Assembly (NCBI GenBank): GCA_016188895.1
Contig: JACPGZ010000041.1
Coordinates: 1 to 42,400, forward strand
Length of the DNA: 42,400 nt
Reading direction: 5' to 3'
DNA from: Candidatus Pacearchaeota archaeon
GTDB lineage: Archaea > Nanobdellota > Nanobdellia > Pacearchaeales > GW2011-AR1
In this document: positions 28,791-35,212 of the stretch, in pieces
How positions within the stretch are numbered: position 1 is the first letter of the stretch
Layout of the letters: each line of letters opens with the position of its first letter
The notes under the pieces: model-generated
The model's database searches: none
What the model saw: only the letters and a program-made list of their open reading frames with translations
Told to the model about the DNA's origin: nothing
Made by a program: the position numbers and the translations under genes

Positions 28791-31478
28791 TTGAATGGGA
28801 TGATAACGAAAGAAGAAGCGAAAGATAAGTTAAAAAGACTAATATCAGATTTCCCTAAACATACATATCATAATGAAGAAAATTTGAAGTTTAACTATAT
28901 AGAACCCTTGCTTATGGAAATTTTAGGCTGGGATAGAGAAAATATAATTAAAGAACAGAGAGTTTTGAAGGGGAGAGCAGATTATATATTGAAGATTGGC
29001 AACGAAGAAGTTTTGGTTATTGAAACTAAACGCCCAAATGTCTCGCTAAATGAAGAAGAAGGTAGGCAGGCTGTTTCCTATGCTTATCACAGAAAGATTA
29101 AGTTTGCTGTTCTAACTAATTTTAAAGAAATTAAAGTTTATCATGCCTTAAGCAATATTAAAAATATCGATAAGAATTTATTAAAATTTGAAACAGGCGG
29201 ATTATTTAGAATTCCGATTGACCAATTCTTAACAAATTTTGATAAACTTTTTCTTTTATCTAGAGAAAGTTTTGAGAAAGGAGAAATAAATAAACTTTTA
29301 TCAAAGAAAGATGAAAAATTAGCTAAGCCAATTGATAAAAGTATCTTAGACGATTTACTTGAGATTAGAGAATGGCTATCGAAAGATCTTAAGAAATTAA
29401 GATTGCATCTTACGAAAGAACAGATTGATGAAATTGTACAGATTCTTATTGACCGATTCATATTTATGCGTTCGGTAGAAGATCGAGGCTTAGAGGAAAG
29501 AGATTTCTTATTAAAAATGGTTAAAGACTTTCAAGAAGGCAGAACTAATAAAAGGTTATGGGAATCTCTCAAAATAAAATTCAAGATTTTTGATAAGGAA
29601 TATAACTCTAATCTCTTTAGTGAAGGATTACTCGAAAAAGAAGGCTTTTTTGATGAGCAAATCTTGAGTAAGGTGATCAAAGAACTTTATTTTGGGAATG
29701 AAGGGCAACAAGAACGTTATATGTTTGATGAAATTCCAGGAGATTTGTTGGGAAGTATTTATGAACAATATTTAGGAACTGTTTTACAAGGAACAGAAAA
29801 GCGAGTAAAACTTGAATCAGAAAGTGGAAAAAGAAAGAAGATGGGAATTTATTACACACCATCTTATATTGTTGATTATATTGTAAAAAATACAGTAGGA
29901 GAATACATCAAAGATAAAACAATTGATGAAATTTTAGAAGTTAGAATTCTTGATCCTGCTTGCGGTTCTGGAAGTTTCTTAACAAAAGCATTTCAAGAAG
30001 TTGCCAAAGCAATAGAGGAAAGATTAAAGAAAGGGGAAAAGGCAAAAAATTATCAAGCATTTCAAAGTTATAATGGAAGATTAACATTAGGACAAAAAGC
30101 AACTATTTTATTGAATTGTATTCATGGTGTTGATTTAGATGAAAAGGCTGTTGAACTTGCACAATTAATTCTTTTATTAAAGCTTTTGGAAGATGAAACC
30201 CCAGAAACAAAAAGACGGCTTTTGCCAAATATGAAAGACAACATAAAAAATGGAAATTCTTTAATTGATGACCCAAAAATTGCAGGAAATAAGGCTTTCA
30301 ACTGGCATGCCCAATTCCCAGATGTTTTTAGACAAGGCGGATTTGATGTTGTTATTGGAAATCCGCCGTATGGTGCCAAATTAACAAATGAAGAAAAGAA
30401 ATATCTTGATAAAAATATAATAAAAGACAAATCTCAAGACACTGCTAATTATTTCATAACTAAAAATATTAAATTATTAAAAATAAATGGCAAGTTAGGA
30501 TTTATAGTACCAAAGGGGCTAAGTTATGTTCCCTCTTCACAGAATGTAAGGGAGGAAGTGATAAAGAATAAAATAAATTTCTTAATTGATGTTTCTGAAG
30601 CATTTGGAAAAGATGTACAATATGAGCAATTGATTATTATTATTTCAAAGGAGGATAGAGATTATAATAATTTTATAAATGGATTTTTTGCGAATGGTAA
30701 ATTTAATGAAAACCAATCTCCCAAAGAGATATTATCAAAAGAAAGACTCTTGATGTGGATAAATAATCACAATTTTAATATAATTAAGAAAATAATAAAT
30801 AATTCTATAAAATTAGATGAGATAGCTAAATCAAGAAGAGGGTTAGGTTGCAACAAATATGTCTCTACTGAAAAAAATGATTTTATCTGTCTTAAAGGGC
30901 AAAATGTTCAGAGATATCGTTTAGATAGAAGAAATTATATTTCTAAAAATAAGATAAATCAAGAATATAAATGGCTTCTAACTGATAAAATAATTGCCCA
31001 AGAAATAGTTGGAAGGTACGGTAAACCTTTGTTTGGAAATTTCAGAAATGTACAGCTTAAAGCAACTTTAGATTTAGATAATTCACTAACTTTAGACACC
31101 GTGGTAAATATCTTTAATATAGAAGGATATGATATAAAATTTGTGTTAGCTTTACTTAATTCAAGATTAATGTCTTGGTTTTTTCATATTTATTTTTACA
31201 ATAAAGCACAAATAACAGTGCATTTCGGCAACGAATATGTAAGAAACTTCCCAATTCCTAAAAAAATAGACAAAAAACAAGAACAAAAAGTAACTTCTTT
31301 GGTAGATGAAATGCTAAAATTGCAGAAACAACTTCACGAAGGAAATCCAACAGGAAATGAAAAAGAAAGGTTAGAACAGCAAATCAAAAATATTGATTAT
31401 GAAATTGACCAAGAAGTTTATAAGCTGTATGGGTTGACCAAAGAGGAGATTAAAATTGTTGAGGAGAGTTTGAAATGA
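28791..31478 (+). CDS. Type IIG restriction-modification enzyme (HsdR_N-like nuclease + N6-adenine methylase)
   Basis: RADYILKIGNEEVLVIETKRP, DPACGSGSFL motif I, NPPYG motif IV, LYGLTKEEIKIVEESLK tail. Confidence 0.9.
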   Translation: MNGMITKEEAKDKLKRLISDFPKHTYHNEENLKFNYIEPLLMEILGWDRENIIKEQRVLKGRADYILKIGNEEVLVIETKRPNVSLNEEEGRQAVSYAYHRKIKFAVLTNFKEIKVYHALSNIKNIDKNLLKFETGGLFRIPIDQFLTNFDKLFLLSRESFEKGEINKLLSKKDEKLAKPIDKSILDDLLEIREWLSKDLKKLRLHLTKEQIDEIVQILIDRFIFMRSVEDRGLEERDFLLKMVKDFQEGRTNKRLWESLKIKFKIFDKEYNSNLFSEGLLEKEGFFDEQILSKVIKELYFGNEGQQERYMFDEIPGDLLGSIYEQYLGTVLQGTEKRVKLESESGKRKKMGIYYTPSYIVDYIVKNTVGEYIKDKTIDEILEVRILDPACGSGSFLTKAFQEVAKAIEERLKKGEKAKNYQAFQSYNGRLTLGQKATILLNCIHGVDLDEKAVELAQLILLLKLLEDETPETKRRLLPNMKDNIKNGNSLIDDPKIAGNKAFNWHAQFPDVFRQGGFDVVIGNPPYGAKLTNEEKKYLDKNIIKDKSQDTANYFITKNIKLLKINGKLGFIVPKGLSYVPSSQNVREEVIKNKINFLIDVSEAFGKDVQYEQLIIIISKEDRDYNNFINGFFANGKFNENQSPKEILSKERLLMWINNHNFNIIKKIINNSIKLDEIAKSRRGLGCNKYVSTEKNDFICLKGQNVQRYRLDRRNYISKNKINQEYKWLLTDKIIAQEIVGRYGKPLFGNFRNVQLKATLDLDNSLTLDTVVNIFNIEGYDIKFVLALLNSRLMSWFFHIYFYNKAQITVHFGNEYVRNFPIPKKIDKKQEQKVTSLVDEMLKLQKQLHEGNPTGNEKERLEQQIKNIDYEIDQEVYKLYGLTKEEIKIVEESLK

Positions 31479-32095
31479 ATAATCTATTTTCTGGAACACA
31501 AGAAAAAACATTTTATTTATGGATAGACCTTAATAACCCTATAGTTAAACACAATTTCAAAATTGGTTCTTTTGTTTCATCTAATTTTCTCCCTGCAAAG
31601 GGGGAAGACCATTTAATGTTTTTGCCAAATCCTAATTTCAGTAATTTTATAAGTCCTTTTCAAATGAATCTTCTTAATAGCTATCTTGCGGAATATAATT
31701 TAGAATTGAGTAGAAGAGCTTTCTATAAAAATTATCCAAATAGATTAGTCGCGACATTCTTATTTGATTATAAAGAGGAGGCGGACAAATATAAAGAAAG
31801 AAATCAAGAACTTGTAAAAAATAGAAAGTTGGTAAAAGGAAAATCTTTTGGAAATTGTATTTATTCGAAACATGATTTATCATGGATAGACTTTCTTAGA
31901 CTGAATGGTTCAAAAGATCAAGAAACCATTAATAATATTTGTAAATCTTATTGGGAAGGAAAAGTTGTCAAAGAATGCAAATTAATGCATTTTGGTAGCG
32001 AGTGGTCTGAAGACTCAATTTTTGAGATTCTTTTCTATGGAAAGATAAATTTTGACAAAGAAGAGCAGAAAATTATTGAGGAGAGCTTGAAATGA
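31475..32095 (+). CDS. Hypothetical protein in RM operon, ends IIEESLK
   Basis: ATGA overlap with RM gene. Confidence 0.65.
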   Translation: MNNLFSGTQEKTFYLWIDLNNPIVKHNFKIGSFVSSNFLPAKGEDHLMFLPNPNFSNFISPFQMNLLNSYLAEYNLELSRRAFYKNYPNRLVATFLFDYKEEADKYKERNQELVKNRKLVKGKSFGNCIYSKHDLSWIDFLRLNGSKDQETINNICKSYWEGKVVKECKLMHFGSEWSEDSIFEILFYGKINFDKEEQKIIEESLK

Positions 32096-32505
32096 CAGAA
32101 GAAGAAACTGAAAATGAAGAAGAGAAAATAGTAAAGGCTTCTTGCAGCTTTTGTGGAAAAGAAATAGAATGTCCAGAAAAAATGCTAAAGGTTGATAAAC
32201 ACATGTGCTATGAATGTTATAAAAATCCTCCAGTAGAAATATCAGAAAAAGAATTGTCTAAAATCCATATAGATATTCCAATAAATAAACTAAATGAAAT
32301 GTTTTATGATGCAGTAGCTACTCAAATGAAAGAAATAGCCTTTCCTAAGATATGGCAAGAACGCAAATCAGAACTTAAAGAAATATCAAAAAAAGAATTA
32401 GCTGAGTTAATGTTCTTAGAGGGTGCGATGGCAGGGGCTGGGTTTTTATTCGAAACCATGAAAGATAAGGAAGAAAATGATATTGTCGAGGAGAGTTTAA
32501 AGTGA
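32092..32505 (+). CDS. Zinc-finger hypothetical protein in RM operon, ends IVEESLK
   Basis: CSFCGKEIECP...MCYECY; ATGA overlap. Confidence 0.65.
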   Translation: MTEEETENEEEKIVKASCSFCGKEIECPEKMLKVDKHMCYECYKNPPVEISEKELSKIHIDIPINKLNEMFYDAVATQMKEIAFPKIWQERKSELKEISKKELAELMFLEGAMAGAGFLFETMKDKEENDIVEESLK

Positions 32506-32906
32506 ATGATTTAGAATTAATGGACGAAATGCAGAAAAATCACAGTTTCCAAGGGCAGATGAATGGTATGGCTAAGTCTATTGAAATAGTAATAGATAAA
32601 ATTTTAGAGCAAAACGACGTAAAACCACGAGGGTCATTTGGGAATAGAATTAAACAATTTAAGGAAGTCTGTCCAGAATTTCCTGAATTGCTTGGAGATT
32701 TAATGAACTTTAATGAGTTCTGGAACATTACGAAACATGGGGTAATAATTATGGGTGCGGACATATCGGAGTCTTTTTTTAAGGATGAGGAAACACACAA
32801 GTTTAATCAACAAAGGAAAGAAGAGATATCTAAGAACTTTACAGAAGTTATGAAAAAACTAATAGTGATTTCTAAAAAAAAAGTTATTGAAGAGAGTTTG
32901 AAATGA
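32502..32906 (+). CDS. Helical hypothetical protein in RM operon, ends VIEESLK
   Basis: GTG start in overlap; FNEFWNITKHG reminiscent of HEPN-like folds (weak). Confidence 0.6.
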   Translation: MNDLELMDEMQKNHSFQGQMNGMAKSIEIVIDKILEQNDVKPRGSFGNRIKQFKEVCPEFPELLGDLMNFNEFWNITKHGVIIMGADISESFFKDEETHKFNQQRKEEISKNFTEVMKKLIVISKKKVIEESLK

Positions 32907-33376
32907 GTGAAACAATATTAGATTATGATAAAATAATATGGGAAGTTTTTGCCATCGGAGTTACTGCTTCTATTATAATCTTGTATAATGTCGTAAATTT
33001 AGAAAGTAAAATACCTAAGAACTTTGATGTTTTGGTACTGATTCTTGGTTTTTCTATACTAATCTATTCTTCCATTTTGTTTTTAGGTTATAATTTTAAA
33101 AAAAGTATTTTTATTAACTCAGATTCTAAAAATAAAATTAAGGAAAAGCTAGAAAAGAGTTGGTATCCTAGAGCAAGATGGATGGCAGAAATAATATTAC
33201 TTTTTATAATAATATTATATTTTAAAGCATTCACGGAAAAATGGATCCCAATAGTTATTCTATTGATTACCATAGTAATTTGTAGTATTGCTAATTGTTG
33301 TGCTAAGAAAAAAGTTCAAAAAAACAATTGGGTAGGTTATTGTAATTATTTTAAATCTTATTTTCGCTGTCAATAA
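32903..33376 (+). CDS. Four-TM membrane protein in RM operon
   Basis: ATGA overlap, four hydrophobic segments. Confidence 0.6.
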   Translation: MSETILDYDKIIWEVFAIGVTASIIILYNVVNLESKIPKNFDVLVLILGFSILIYSSILFLGYNFKKSIFINSDSKNKIKEKLEKSWYPRARWMAEIILLFIIILYFKAFTEKWIPIVILLITIVICSIANCCAKKKVQKNNWVGYCNYFKSYFRCQ

Positions 33377-33521
33377 CTCTTTCTTCAAACACCCTCACCA
33401 TCTGAGGACTTGGCAAATCTATGTCGTGCTGGACAAAAATTGGGTAGATGTTATCGAGGAGAGTCTTAATTAAATAATAGGCCATAGTTACATTATTAAA
33501 TATCAAAATATTAGGTAAAAT

Positions 33522-33719
33522 ATGGAAGGCAAAGAACAGGGGCTAAGAGAAAGGTTTCTAAAAATTTATGCAGATATTCCCTTAAATTTAAGAAAAGAGA
33601 TAATCCTTGTTTTAGAAAATGAACCGATTAGTTGGAATGTCGCTTTTGTTGAAGTGACAAATAAAACTCATAAATCAACAATAATATTAAAAAAATTAAA
33701 TGAATTAAGAATAATTTAA
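33522..33719 (+). CDS. Small protein, possible winged-helix
   Basis: ILVLENEPISWNVAFVEVTNKTHKSTIILKKLNELRII. Confidence 0.5.
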   Translation: MEGKEQGLRERFLKIYADIPLNLRKEIILVLENEPISWNVAFVEVTNKTHKSTIILKKLNELRII

Positions 33720-33720
33720 A

Positions 33721-33939
33721 ATGGAAGAAAAAGAAAAAATTACAGAAGAAATAAAAAAACTTGTTATAGCGAGATTAGAAGTCCTTCCAGAAAATAAAAA
33801 AGTATCTATCGGAAATTTTGGTGAATTTAGTAAAAGTGAATTAATAGATAATGTAAATAAAAATACCGAAATTGGAAATAAAATTATAGAAATAGAACTA
33901 GAATTTTTAAGAGCTATGAAAAAAGGAATAATACAATGA
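33721..33939 (+). CDS. Small helical protein, partner of caspase-like protease
   Basis: 72 aa; 4-nt overlap with next gene. Confidence 0.55.
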   Translation: MEEKEKITEEIKKLVIARLEVLPENKKVSIGNFGEFSKSELIDNVNKNTEIGNKIIEIELEFLRAMKKGIIQ

Positions 33940-34577
33940 ATTTTAATTTTTTGCTCACGAGACCAGAACATGATGATACAACTTTTTATTTGTCCAACTG
34001 GTGTAAAGATGGTCTTGATTTAGCAGGAAAAAAGGGAGCAAAAATTAGCGACTTACATCGTGATAAGGCAAATAAAAAGGAGTTTGAAGGAAGAGTTTAT
34101 AAATCTTGTCCGGAATTTATTGTTTTCAATGGACATGGAGACGAAAATTCTGTTACAGGGCATAAGAATGAAGAGCTAATCTCGGTAGAAAGTGATGAAA
34201 AATTTTTAAAGTTAAATATAGTTTATGCAATTTCTTGTCGTTCTGCTAAAAATTTAGGTAAAAAATGTATTGAAAAAGGAACAAATTGTTATGTGGGCTA
34301 TACAGATGATTTTATTTTTGTTTACGAAAAAGAAAAAATAAGCAGACCATTAACTGACGAAACTGCTAAACTTTTTTTGGAACCATCAAAATTATTCATA
34401 GAAGCGGTAATCAAAAATAATTCCGTGAAAGATGCTCTAGAGCGCTCAAAGAAAAAAATTCAAGAAAACTTCATTAAAACTTTGTCTGGAGACGAACAAG
34501 AAACTACTCTGGCAAGGTATCTTTGGTGGAACTCAAGAAATTTTATATCTCTAGGAAATCAAAATGCTACAATATGA
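33936..34577 (+). CDS. Caspase/gingipain/CHAT-like (clan CD) cysteine peptidase
   Basis: FIVFNGHGDENSVTGH (His) and IVYAISCRSAKNLG (Cys) with alternating beta strands. Confidence 0.7.
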   Translation: MNFNFLLTRPEHDDTTFYLSNWCKDGLDLAGKKGAKISDLHRDKANKKEFEGRVYKSCPEFIVFNGHGDENSVTGHKNEELISVESDEKFLKLNIVYAISCRSAKNLGKKCIEKGTNCYVGYTDDFIFVYEKEKISRPLTDETAKLFLEPSKLFIEAVIKNNSVKDALERSKKKIQENFIKTLSGDEQETTLARYLWWNSRNFISLGNQNATI

Positions 34578-35212
34578 AAATGACCTACATTCTCTCCCCA
34601 TCTTCATTGAATCTTCTTGAGGAATGCCCGAGATGTTTTTATTTGCAAGTTGTCAGAAAAATAAGAAGGCCAAGAGGACCAATGTCTTCTATTCCGATAA
34701 AGATGGATTCTATTATTAAGAAGTACTTTGATATTTATAGGGAGAAAGGAATTTTACCGCCATTAATTGAAAAGAAGGTTAAAGGTGTTCTTCCTCTTGA
34801 TATGCCAAAAACATTATACTATGAAGATGAAAATAATGGAATAAAACTAAAAGGACTCCCAGACGAGTATTTACAAACTGAAGATGAAGCTATTGTCCCT
34901 TTTGACCATAAAACTAAAAGCAAAGCTCCAAAAGAAACGCATCCACGCTATCAGCTACAATTAGAATGCTATACTTTTCTTTTAGAAGCTAATGGATATA
35001 AAACTAAGAATTTTGGATATTTAGCTTATTATCATCCAGAGCAATGCGAGATACATAATGGAATGGATATTCAGGTGAATATTATCAAAGTCAAAACTGA
35101 CCCAGAAAGAGTTAAGAAAGCTCTCAAAAAGGCTTCTGAAATCTTAAATGGAAAACTGCCTAAAATTAACAGAACATGCGAATATTGCAAGTGGAAAGGA
35201 ATAAAATTATAA
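34574..35212 (+). CDS. PD-(D/E)XK nuclease, Cas4/RecB-like with Cys cluster
   Basis: LSPSSLNLLEECPRCFYLQ, IVPFDHKTKSKAP, C-terminal CEYCKW. Confidence 0.8.
   Translation: MKMTYILSPSSLNLLEECPRCFYLQVVRKIRRPRGPMSSIPIKMDSIIKKYFDIYREKGILPPLIEKKVKGVLPLDMPKTLYYEDENNGIKLKGLPDEYLQTEDEAIVPFDHKTKSKAPKETHPRYQLQLECYTFLLEANGYKTKNFGYLAYYHPEQCEIHNGMDIQVNIIKVKTDPERVKKALKKASEILNGKLPKINRTCEYCKWKGIKL

Follow-up and report, generated by a model that had tools for sequence, protein, structure and literature searches.

A small three-gene module with a predicted caspase/CHAT-type peptidase in DPANN archaea, a candidate cell-death or virus-defense switch

Organization of the locus and expression signals

The window (the whole stretch of 42,400 nucleotides that was analyzed) harbors three adjoining genes on the + strand, referred to as A (33522–33719; 65 aa), B (33721–33939; 72 aa), and C (33936–34577; 213 aa). 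A and B are separated by 1 nt, and B and C overlap by 4 nt (ATGA). The three open reading frames, their sizes, and the 1-nt and 4-nt junctions within 33522–34577 are as described in an earlier sequence-only reading of this DNA, and the two motifs that it noted in C, NGHGD and AISCRSA, were located at residues 65–69 and 98–104, respectively. A and B encode small partner proteins, and C encodes a predicted cysteine peptidase domain of clan CD (caspase/CHAT-type).

The trio had been described as lying directly behind a restriction–modification (RM) array. This was correct as to position, but the last open reading frame of the array ends at 33376, leaving a gap of 145 nt to gene A, and no RM gene was found near most other trio loci. 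The gap contains a TATA-like box (TTATTAAATAT, 33493–33503, + strand, −29 to −19 of gene A), which is a putative promoter of the module's own. In 41 of 65 A genes, a TATA-like hexamer began between −34 and −25 (shuffled sequences: mean 6.8, maximum 16), and a Shine–Dalgarno-like motif preceded only 6 of the 65. This excess of TATA-like hexamers, together with the rarity of Shine–Dalgarno motifs, suggests that the module is transcribed from a promoter of its own into a leaderless mRNA. An excess of TATA-like hexamers was also seen before B and was set aside as a probable coding artifact of the conserved ILK codons of A.

Occurrence and linkage of the three genes

Relatives of C were searched for in 200 genomes of the order to which the window belongs and in 371 genomes sampled across the phylum; they were identified in 24 (two of them weak partial matches) and 44 genomes, respectively. 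A and B were each searched for independently of C in the 371-genome sample. By our tally of strong matches, A was present in 41 of these genomes, all of which also carried C or a C remnant, and the three genomes with C and without A held C remnants only. The module is thus patchily distributed, occurring in approximately 12% of genomes.

Approximately 70 loci were collected, and A, B, and C were mapped in them by HMM. The complete trio was found in approximately 60 loci, all within one archaeal class (DPANN), and the order in complete loci was always A-B-C on a single strand. Of 59 trios, 43 had a 4-nt overlap between A and B; B and C overlapped by 4 nt in 19 and were 1 nt apart in 15. The two small proteins, which the sequence-only reading had taken as partners of the protease, are indeed conserved with it in the 371-genome sample and in the 59 trios, in each of which A keeps the same place. 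No relatives of A, B, or C were found in phages, plasmids, or viral contigs; the profile searches covered one archaeal phylum, and bacteria were covered via plasmids, phages, and one scan of close relatives.

Family and predicted fold of C

Searches of A, B, and C against Pfam, NCBIfam, PADLOC, and PHROGs returned nothing above the cut-off, and the number of PADLOC families matching any of the three was zero. In these four collections, the earlier proposal of a compact, undescribed module was therefore borne out. For Peptidase_C25 (PF01364), the C protein of the window gave no match at the curated Pfam cut-off, and a match was obtained for one of 60 C members (E 0.0023). CHAT (PF12770) and caspase/metacaspase (PF00656) did not match C and were absent from the families listed for the 60 members (25 of 34); CHAT was not found in 80 related genomes and PF00656 was not found in 64. 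Sequence-profile searches of the PDB retrieved no relative of C.

A relationship was detected by comparing profiles. A reference profile was built from archaeal C25 peptidases that Pfam identifies on its own, and the C profile aligned with it with an hhalign score of 44.5 (E 6.5e-6 for one comparison), whereas 150 column shuffles reached at most 20.4 and the reversed profile 10.8. In this alignment, NGHG of C falls on the (D)HG of C25 and C101 falls on the C25 cysteine, so that the histidine and cysteine are in register. The C25 (gingipain) proteins of DPANN archaea thus have a homologous profile with aligned catalytic residues; they differ in being long and multidomain, whereas C is a bare 213-aa domain with partners of its own.

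An AlphaFold model of C computed from three sequences was of low to moderate confidence (pLDDT 61, pTM 0.56), and the pLDDT was 38 without an alignment. The modeled topology is strand–helix–strand–helix–strand (H67)–small strands–strand (C101)–helix, in which H67 follows the strand at residues 62–65 and C101 follows the strand at residues 95–99 (pLDDT 61); this order of strands and helices equals that of the caspase/haemoglobinase fold (PMC4357240). Among PDB chains, the best match of the model was the CHAT peptidase domain of SAVED-CHAT (8tl0; Z 15.4, rmsd 2.6 Å over 174 residues), followed by procaspase-7 (Z 10.5), legumain (Z 10.4), and other caspases (Z of about 10). The module of C contains no SAVED or other sensor domain and has two small separate partners instead. 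Plain Foldseek searches with the model gave weak matches (the best, to a caspase, at E 0.033 and probability 0.84), so the fold assignment relies on the profile, the topology, and the PDB match jointly. By family and predicted fold, C is a clan CD (caspase/CHAT-type) peptidase domain; the caspase-like fold anticipated from the sequence was recovered in the model, and the profile match to C25 is independent of it. As a side observation, the top viral fold match of the model in BFVD was A0A8S5MXG5 of Myoviridae sp. ctWaE18 (probability 1.00, TM 0.50), an uncharacterized protein of 320 aa that is possibly a phage-borne clan CD peptidase.

The predicted catalytic dyad is formed by H67 (codon 34134–34136, within NGHG at the end of strand β3) and C101 (codon 34236–34238, at the end of strand β4). 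C101, D13 (codon 33972–33974), and D141 (codon 34356–34358) were invariant in 60 of 60 full-length C proteins, and H67 was kept in 59 of 59; the one exception, in locus L174, has a short in-frame deletion. An aspartate at the site matching D13 is present in MALT1 (Asp365), RgpB (Asp163), and TbMCA2 (Asp95), and in MALT1, gingipain R, and TbMCA2 this residue helps to form the (proposed) pocket that takes a basic P1 residue (PMC4357240). Since D13 lies likewise at the start of the first helix (α1), it is a candidate S1-pocket residue, and we infer that C would cut after Arg or Lys.

The small partners A and B

In A, P20 and W38 were invariant (65 of 65), E44 was kept in 64 of 65, and the position of R24 was basic in 64 of 65. 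The only A with a non-basic residue 24 is in L165, a locus with a broken C, and this is a single case. In B, G52 was invariant and the position of R18 was basic in all 67 proteins. A profile comparison of A and B gave an hhalign score of 24.0 (E 5.6e-5 for the single comparison), compared with 16.4 for the best of 200 shuffles, and the aligned core places P20-x-x-x-R24 of A opposite P23-x-x-x-K27 of B. By this comparison, A and B are distant paralogs, each a diverged copy of the other. Neither contains a membrane segment, as the maximum Kyte–Doolittle mean over 19 residues was 1.39 for A and 1.32 for B across the family. The B profile gave weak matches in the PDB to a designed double-psi barrel (E 0.0036) and weak, repeated matches to sigma-E region 4 (E 0.03–0.8); these were judged too weak for homology to either.

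Mobility, selection, and decay

Four loci from three families (L147, L148, L151, and L152) shared 85–92% identical DNA over the trio and almost nothing outside it. The shared block extends from 4–124 nt before A to 13–181 nt after C. The trio therefore moves alone, without any other conserved gene, and the mobile unit as read from these blocks is A-B-C with approximately 100 bp. The tree of C contained 33 changes of family label, which is near the mean of 35.2 for shuffled labels. Up to three copies were found per genome, and these were mutually distant (G266 and G480 carry three each).

The dN/dS ratio was 0.07 for each of A, B, and C between the window and its nearest relative and ranged from 0.04 to 0.23 for the three genes over nine pairs, indicating that all three are under purifying selection. 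The presence of the same genes in the same order in approximately 60 other loci, together with the ratio of 0.07 for each gene, argues that the trio is not a chance arrangement. No signs of an arms race were found in dN/dS, and strong purifying selection without one also fits a cellular role.

Part of the module was lost in eight loci. In seven of them (L162, L165, L174, L176, L179, L180, and L181), C was broken or gone while A and/or B remained intact; in the eighth (L157), B and C are intact and A is reduced to its first residues, fused to B. A costly C would be in line with this direction of decay; because C accounts for approximately 61% of the module length, however, the bias falls short of significance (p of about 0.12 by our own estimate). 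Single broken genes may also be assembly errors, as nearly all of the genomes are drafts in many contigs. Two of the decayed loci have features of their own. In L174 (7815–8396), an in-frame deletion removes NGHG from C and leaves A, B, and the rest of C open, possibly a natural catalytically dead form. In L181 (7600–8200), a solo B is preceded by a PIN-like open reading frame and followed by a C remnant; this B may have been recruited or may simply be a leftover.

Neighborhood of the module

Directly behind C in the window lies a facultative fourth gene (34574–35212, + strand; 212 aa), which encodes a Cas4-like PD-(D/E)XK nuclease (Pfam PDDEXK_1, E 1e-14; Cas4, E 5e-7). Its start lies within the stop of C, giving a 4-nt overlap (ATGA). 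In L119 and L133, a relative of the nuclease starts 1 nt after C; in L135, one lies 68 nt upstream of A. L119, L133, and the window fall in separate parts of the C tree and thus represent three lineages. The nuclease family has approximately 30 copies in 41 genomes, and on our assumption of about one gene per kilobase, approximately 0.03 copies directly downstream of C would be expected by chance among approximately 46 trios, whereas three were seen. The family was chosen because it adjoins the module in the window; L119 and L133 are independent of that choice. Given three occurrences against an expectation of about 0.03, the link between C and the nuclease is considered real, if facultative, as only a few trio loci carry a nuclease and most do not. 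The solo-Cas4 nucleases of DPANN archaea that occur near RM genes have already been suspected of belonging to an unknown defense pathway (PMC5704561). The nuclease of the window is likewise Cas4-like and near an RM gene; the word "protease" is absent from the main text of that paper.

Defense genes in general were not more frequent around the trios. PADLOC matches were similar for 120 neighbor proteins (within 6 kb of trios) and 120 controls from the same genomes, a rough comparison because the control contigs were partly picked from ones with nucleotidyltransferase matches. Neighbors of the MNT/HEPN type seemed numerous at first, but no enrichment is claimed, as each genome has between 4 and 52 genes with a nucleotidyltransferase domain.

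Behind the type IIG RM gene, five direct repeats of approximately 20 nt (attgttgaggagagtttgaaATGA type) occupy gene junctions within 31456–33475 of the window, starting at 31456, 32074, 32482, 32885, and 33450. I/V-EESLK closes the products of the RM gene and of the three genes that follow it, the next start codon lying in the overlap, and the final repeat copy reads VIEESLN. The arrangement resembles an array of cassettes assembled at the RM gene's 3′ terminus. In the nearest relative (L003; 5430–5545 and 4384–4404), a second copy of the final ~75 nt of the RM gene (DYEIDQEVYKLYGLTKEEIKIVEESLK plus stop) lies just before A, and a repeat copy lies at the end of a different cargo gene. It seems that cargo entered there at the 3′ terminus of the RM gene and that the old end was left beside A-B-C.

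Proposed function and alternative explanations

We favor the reading that A-B-C is a self-contained, horizontally moving module of the toxin or abortive-infection type in which A and B control C, and we give it a probability of about one half. In this view, C would use a His67/Cys101 dyad as a minimal cysteine peptidase of the caspase/CHAT type and would probably cut after Arg or Lys. A and B would be made from one transcript by coupled translation, and their complex would most likely hold C inactive and then release or activate it upon a disturbance of the cell, such as that caused by a virus. Once active, C would cleave cell proteins, or the coupled Cas4-like nuclease where one is present, and growth would stop.

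This reading is supported by the strict linkage in a fixed order and the transfer of the trio alone across three families; by the placement of C in clan CD and the paralogy of A and B; by the patchy presence, the multiple copies, and the conflict between the C tree and taxonomy; and by the module's own promoter signal, the A/B overlap, the loci that lost C, and the nuclease in three lineages. With regard to a type II toxin–antitoxin system, in which paired toxin and antitoxin genes are co-transcribed and mobile, what was observed is linkage, overlapping genes, and mobility, which do not assign the part of toxin or antitoxin to any one gene. A further support is the precedent of Canu, a phage-defense system in which the caspase CanA and its partner CanB activate the nuclease CanC (PMC12799240). 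The likeness consists of a caspase-fold protease, a partner in the locus, and, in some trio loci, a nuclease directly after the protease. Canu differs in having a gated nuclease of the MBL type, whereas the optional nuclease of the trio is PDDEXK_1/Cas4-like, and its caspase is MALT1-like with an Ig domain, whereas C is bare and has two paralogous partners.

Two other systems show partial resemblance. The two-gene EACC1–caspase conflict system (PMC7159879) likewise places a caspase-fold gene behind a small, constant component on the 5′ side; EACC1, however, has a conserved transmembrane helix that A and B do not have, and the caspase of that system is fused to variable effectors, whereas C carries no fusion (PMC7159879). 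The orthocaspase MaOC1, which adjoins a ParE/ParD-type pair (PMC7935541), is likewise a caspase-fold protease tied to two small proteins, but these belong to known toxin and antitoxin families, whereas A and B are copies of one another without a family match.

Several observations count against the favored reading, namely the non-significant decay bias, the purifying selection without an arms race, and the absence of the nuclease from most loci. A role in defense is further disfavored by the lack of a PADLOC excess among the neighbors and of any copy in the viral, phage, and plasmid sequences searched.

A more specific form of the proposal, which we hold only tentatively, is a minimal archaeal immune switch. 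A and B, derived from one duplicated gene, would form a heterodimer acting as sensor and inhibitor, a conserved Arg would serve as a pseudo-substrate, and the protease would unlock the Cas4-like nuclease in some loci. The prodomain of gingipain presents an Arg as a pseudo-substrate in this manner.

The conserved basic residues can also be read in another way, which we regard as considerably less probable than the favored reading. A and/or B may be substrates that C cleaves at R24 of A or R18 of B, thereby liberating a small active product such as a transcription regulator; the trio would then be a proteolytic signaling relay instead of a killer. The basic residue that nearly all A (64/65) and all B (67/67) proteins carry at a fixed place is in line with this, as are the position of D13 at the start of α1, pointing to a basic P1 like that of MALT1 and gingipain, and the repeated sigma-E region 4 matches of B (E 0.03–0.8). 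There is a precedent in Csx29 (TPR-CHAT), which cleaves Csx30 and thereby frees a sigma factor (PMC10028731). The sigma-like matches of B are, however, below any accepted threshold, and the conserved basic residues may be structural. Moreover, sigma factors are, to our knowledge, not used in archaea.

Less probable again is a selfish addiction (toxin–antitoxin) cassette without a role in defense, in which loss of A-B would let C poison the cell. The small size and autonomy of the trio, its mobility on its own, its several copies per genome, the loci that retain A and/or B after loss of C, and the lack of defense-gene enrichment nearby speak for such a cassette; classical type II modules, however, have one antitoxin, and L157 retains an intact C and B although A is almost entirely deleted. 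Finally, C may serve physiological protein processing or quality control as a peptidase that has two accessory subunits and is only accidentally mobile. The strong purifying selection on all three genes and the invariant active-site residues speak for this, but it is improbable, as multiple copies, frequent movement from family to family, and a patchy presence in approximately 12% of genomes are unlike housekeeping genes.

Significance

Caspase-fold proteases are central to programmed death, but those that we know of from prokaryotic conflict systems are large, carry fused sensors, or have a CRISPR connection. If the favored reading is true, the trio would be about the smallest autonomous form, with one catalytic domain and two tiny paralogous controllers, and at approximately 1.1 kb the whole module is small enough for synthesis and testing in a laboratory strain. 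DPANN archaea are tiny, mostly symbiotic cells. They mostly do not have CRISPR-Cas, and the trio offers a first handle on their solo-Cas4 nucleases, the role of which was left open in 2017 (PMC5704561). If the immune-switch form is true, the trio would be an archaeal counterpart of Canu and would provide a partner for the orphan solo-Cas4 of DPANN archaea. Because the two sister proteins and the small caspase-like enzyme always occur jointly, as one transferable set, the trio is a good candidate for an undescribed cell-death or virus-defense switch in these archaea.
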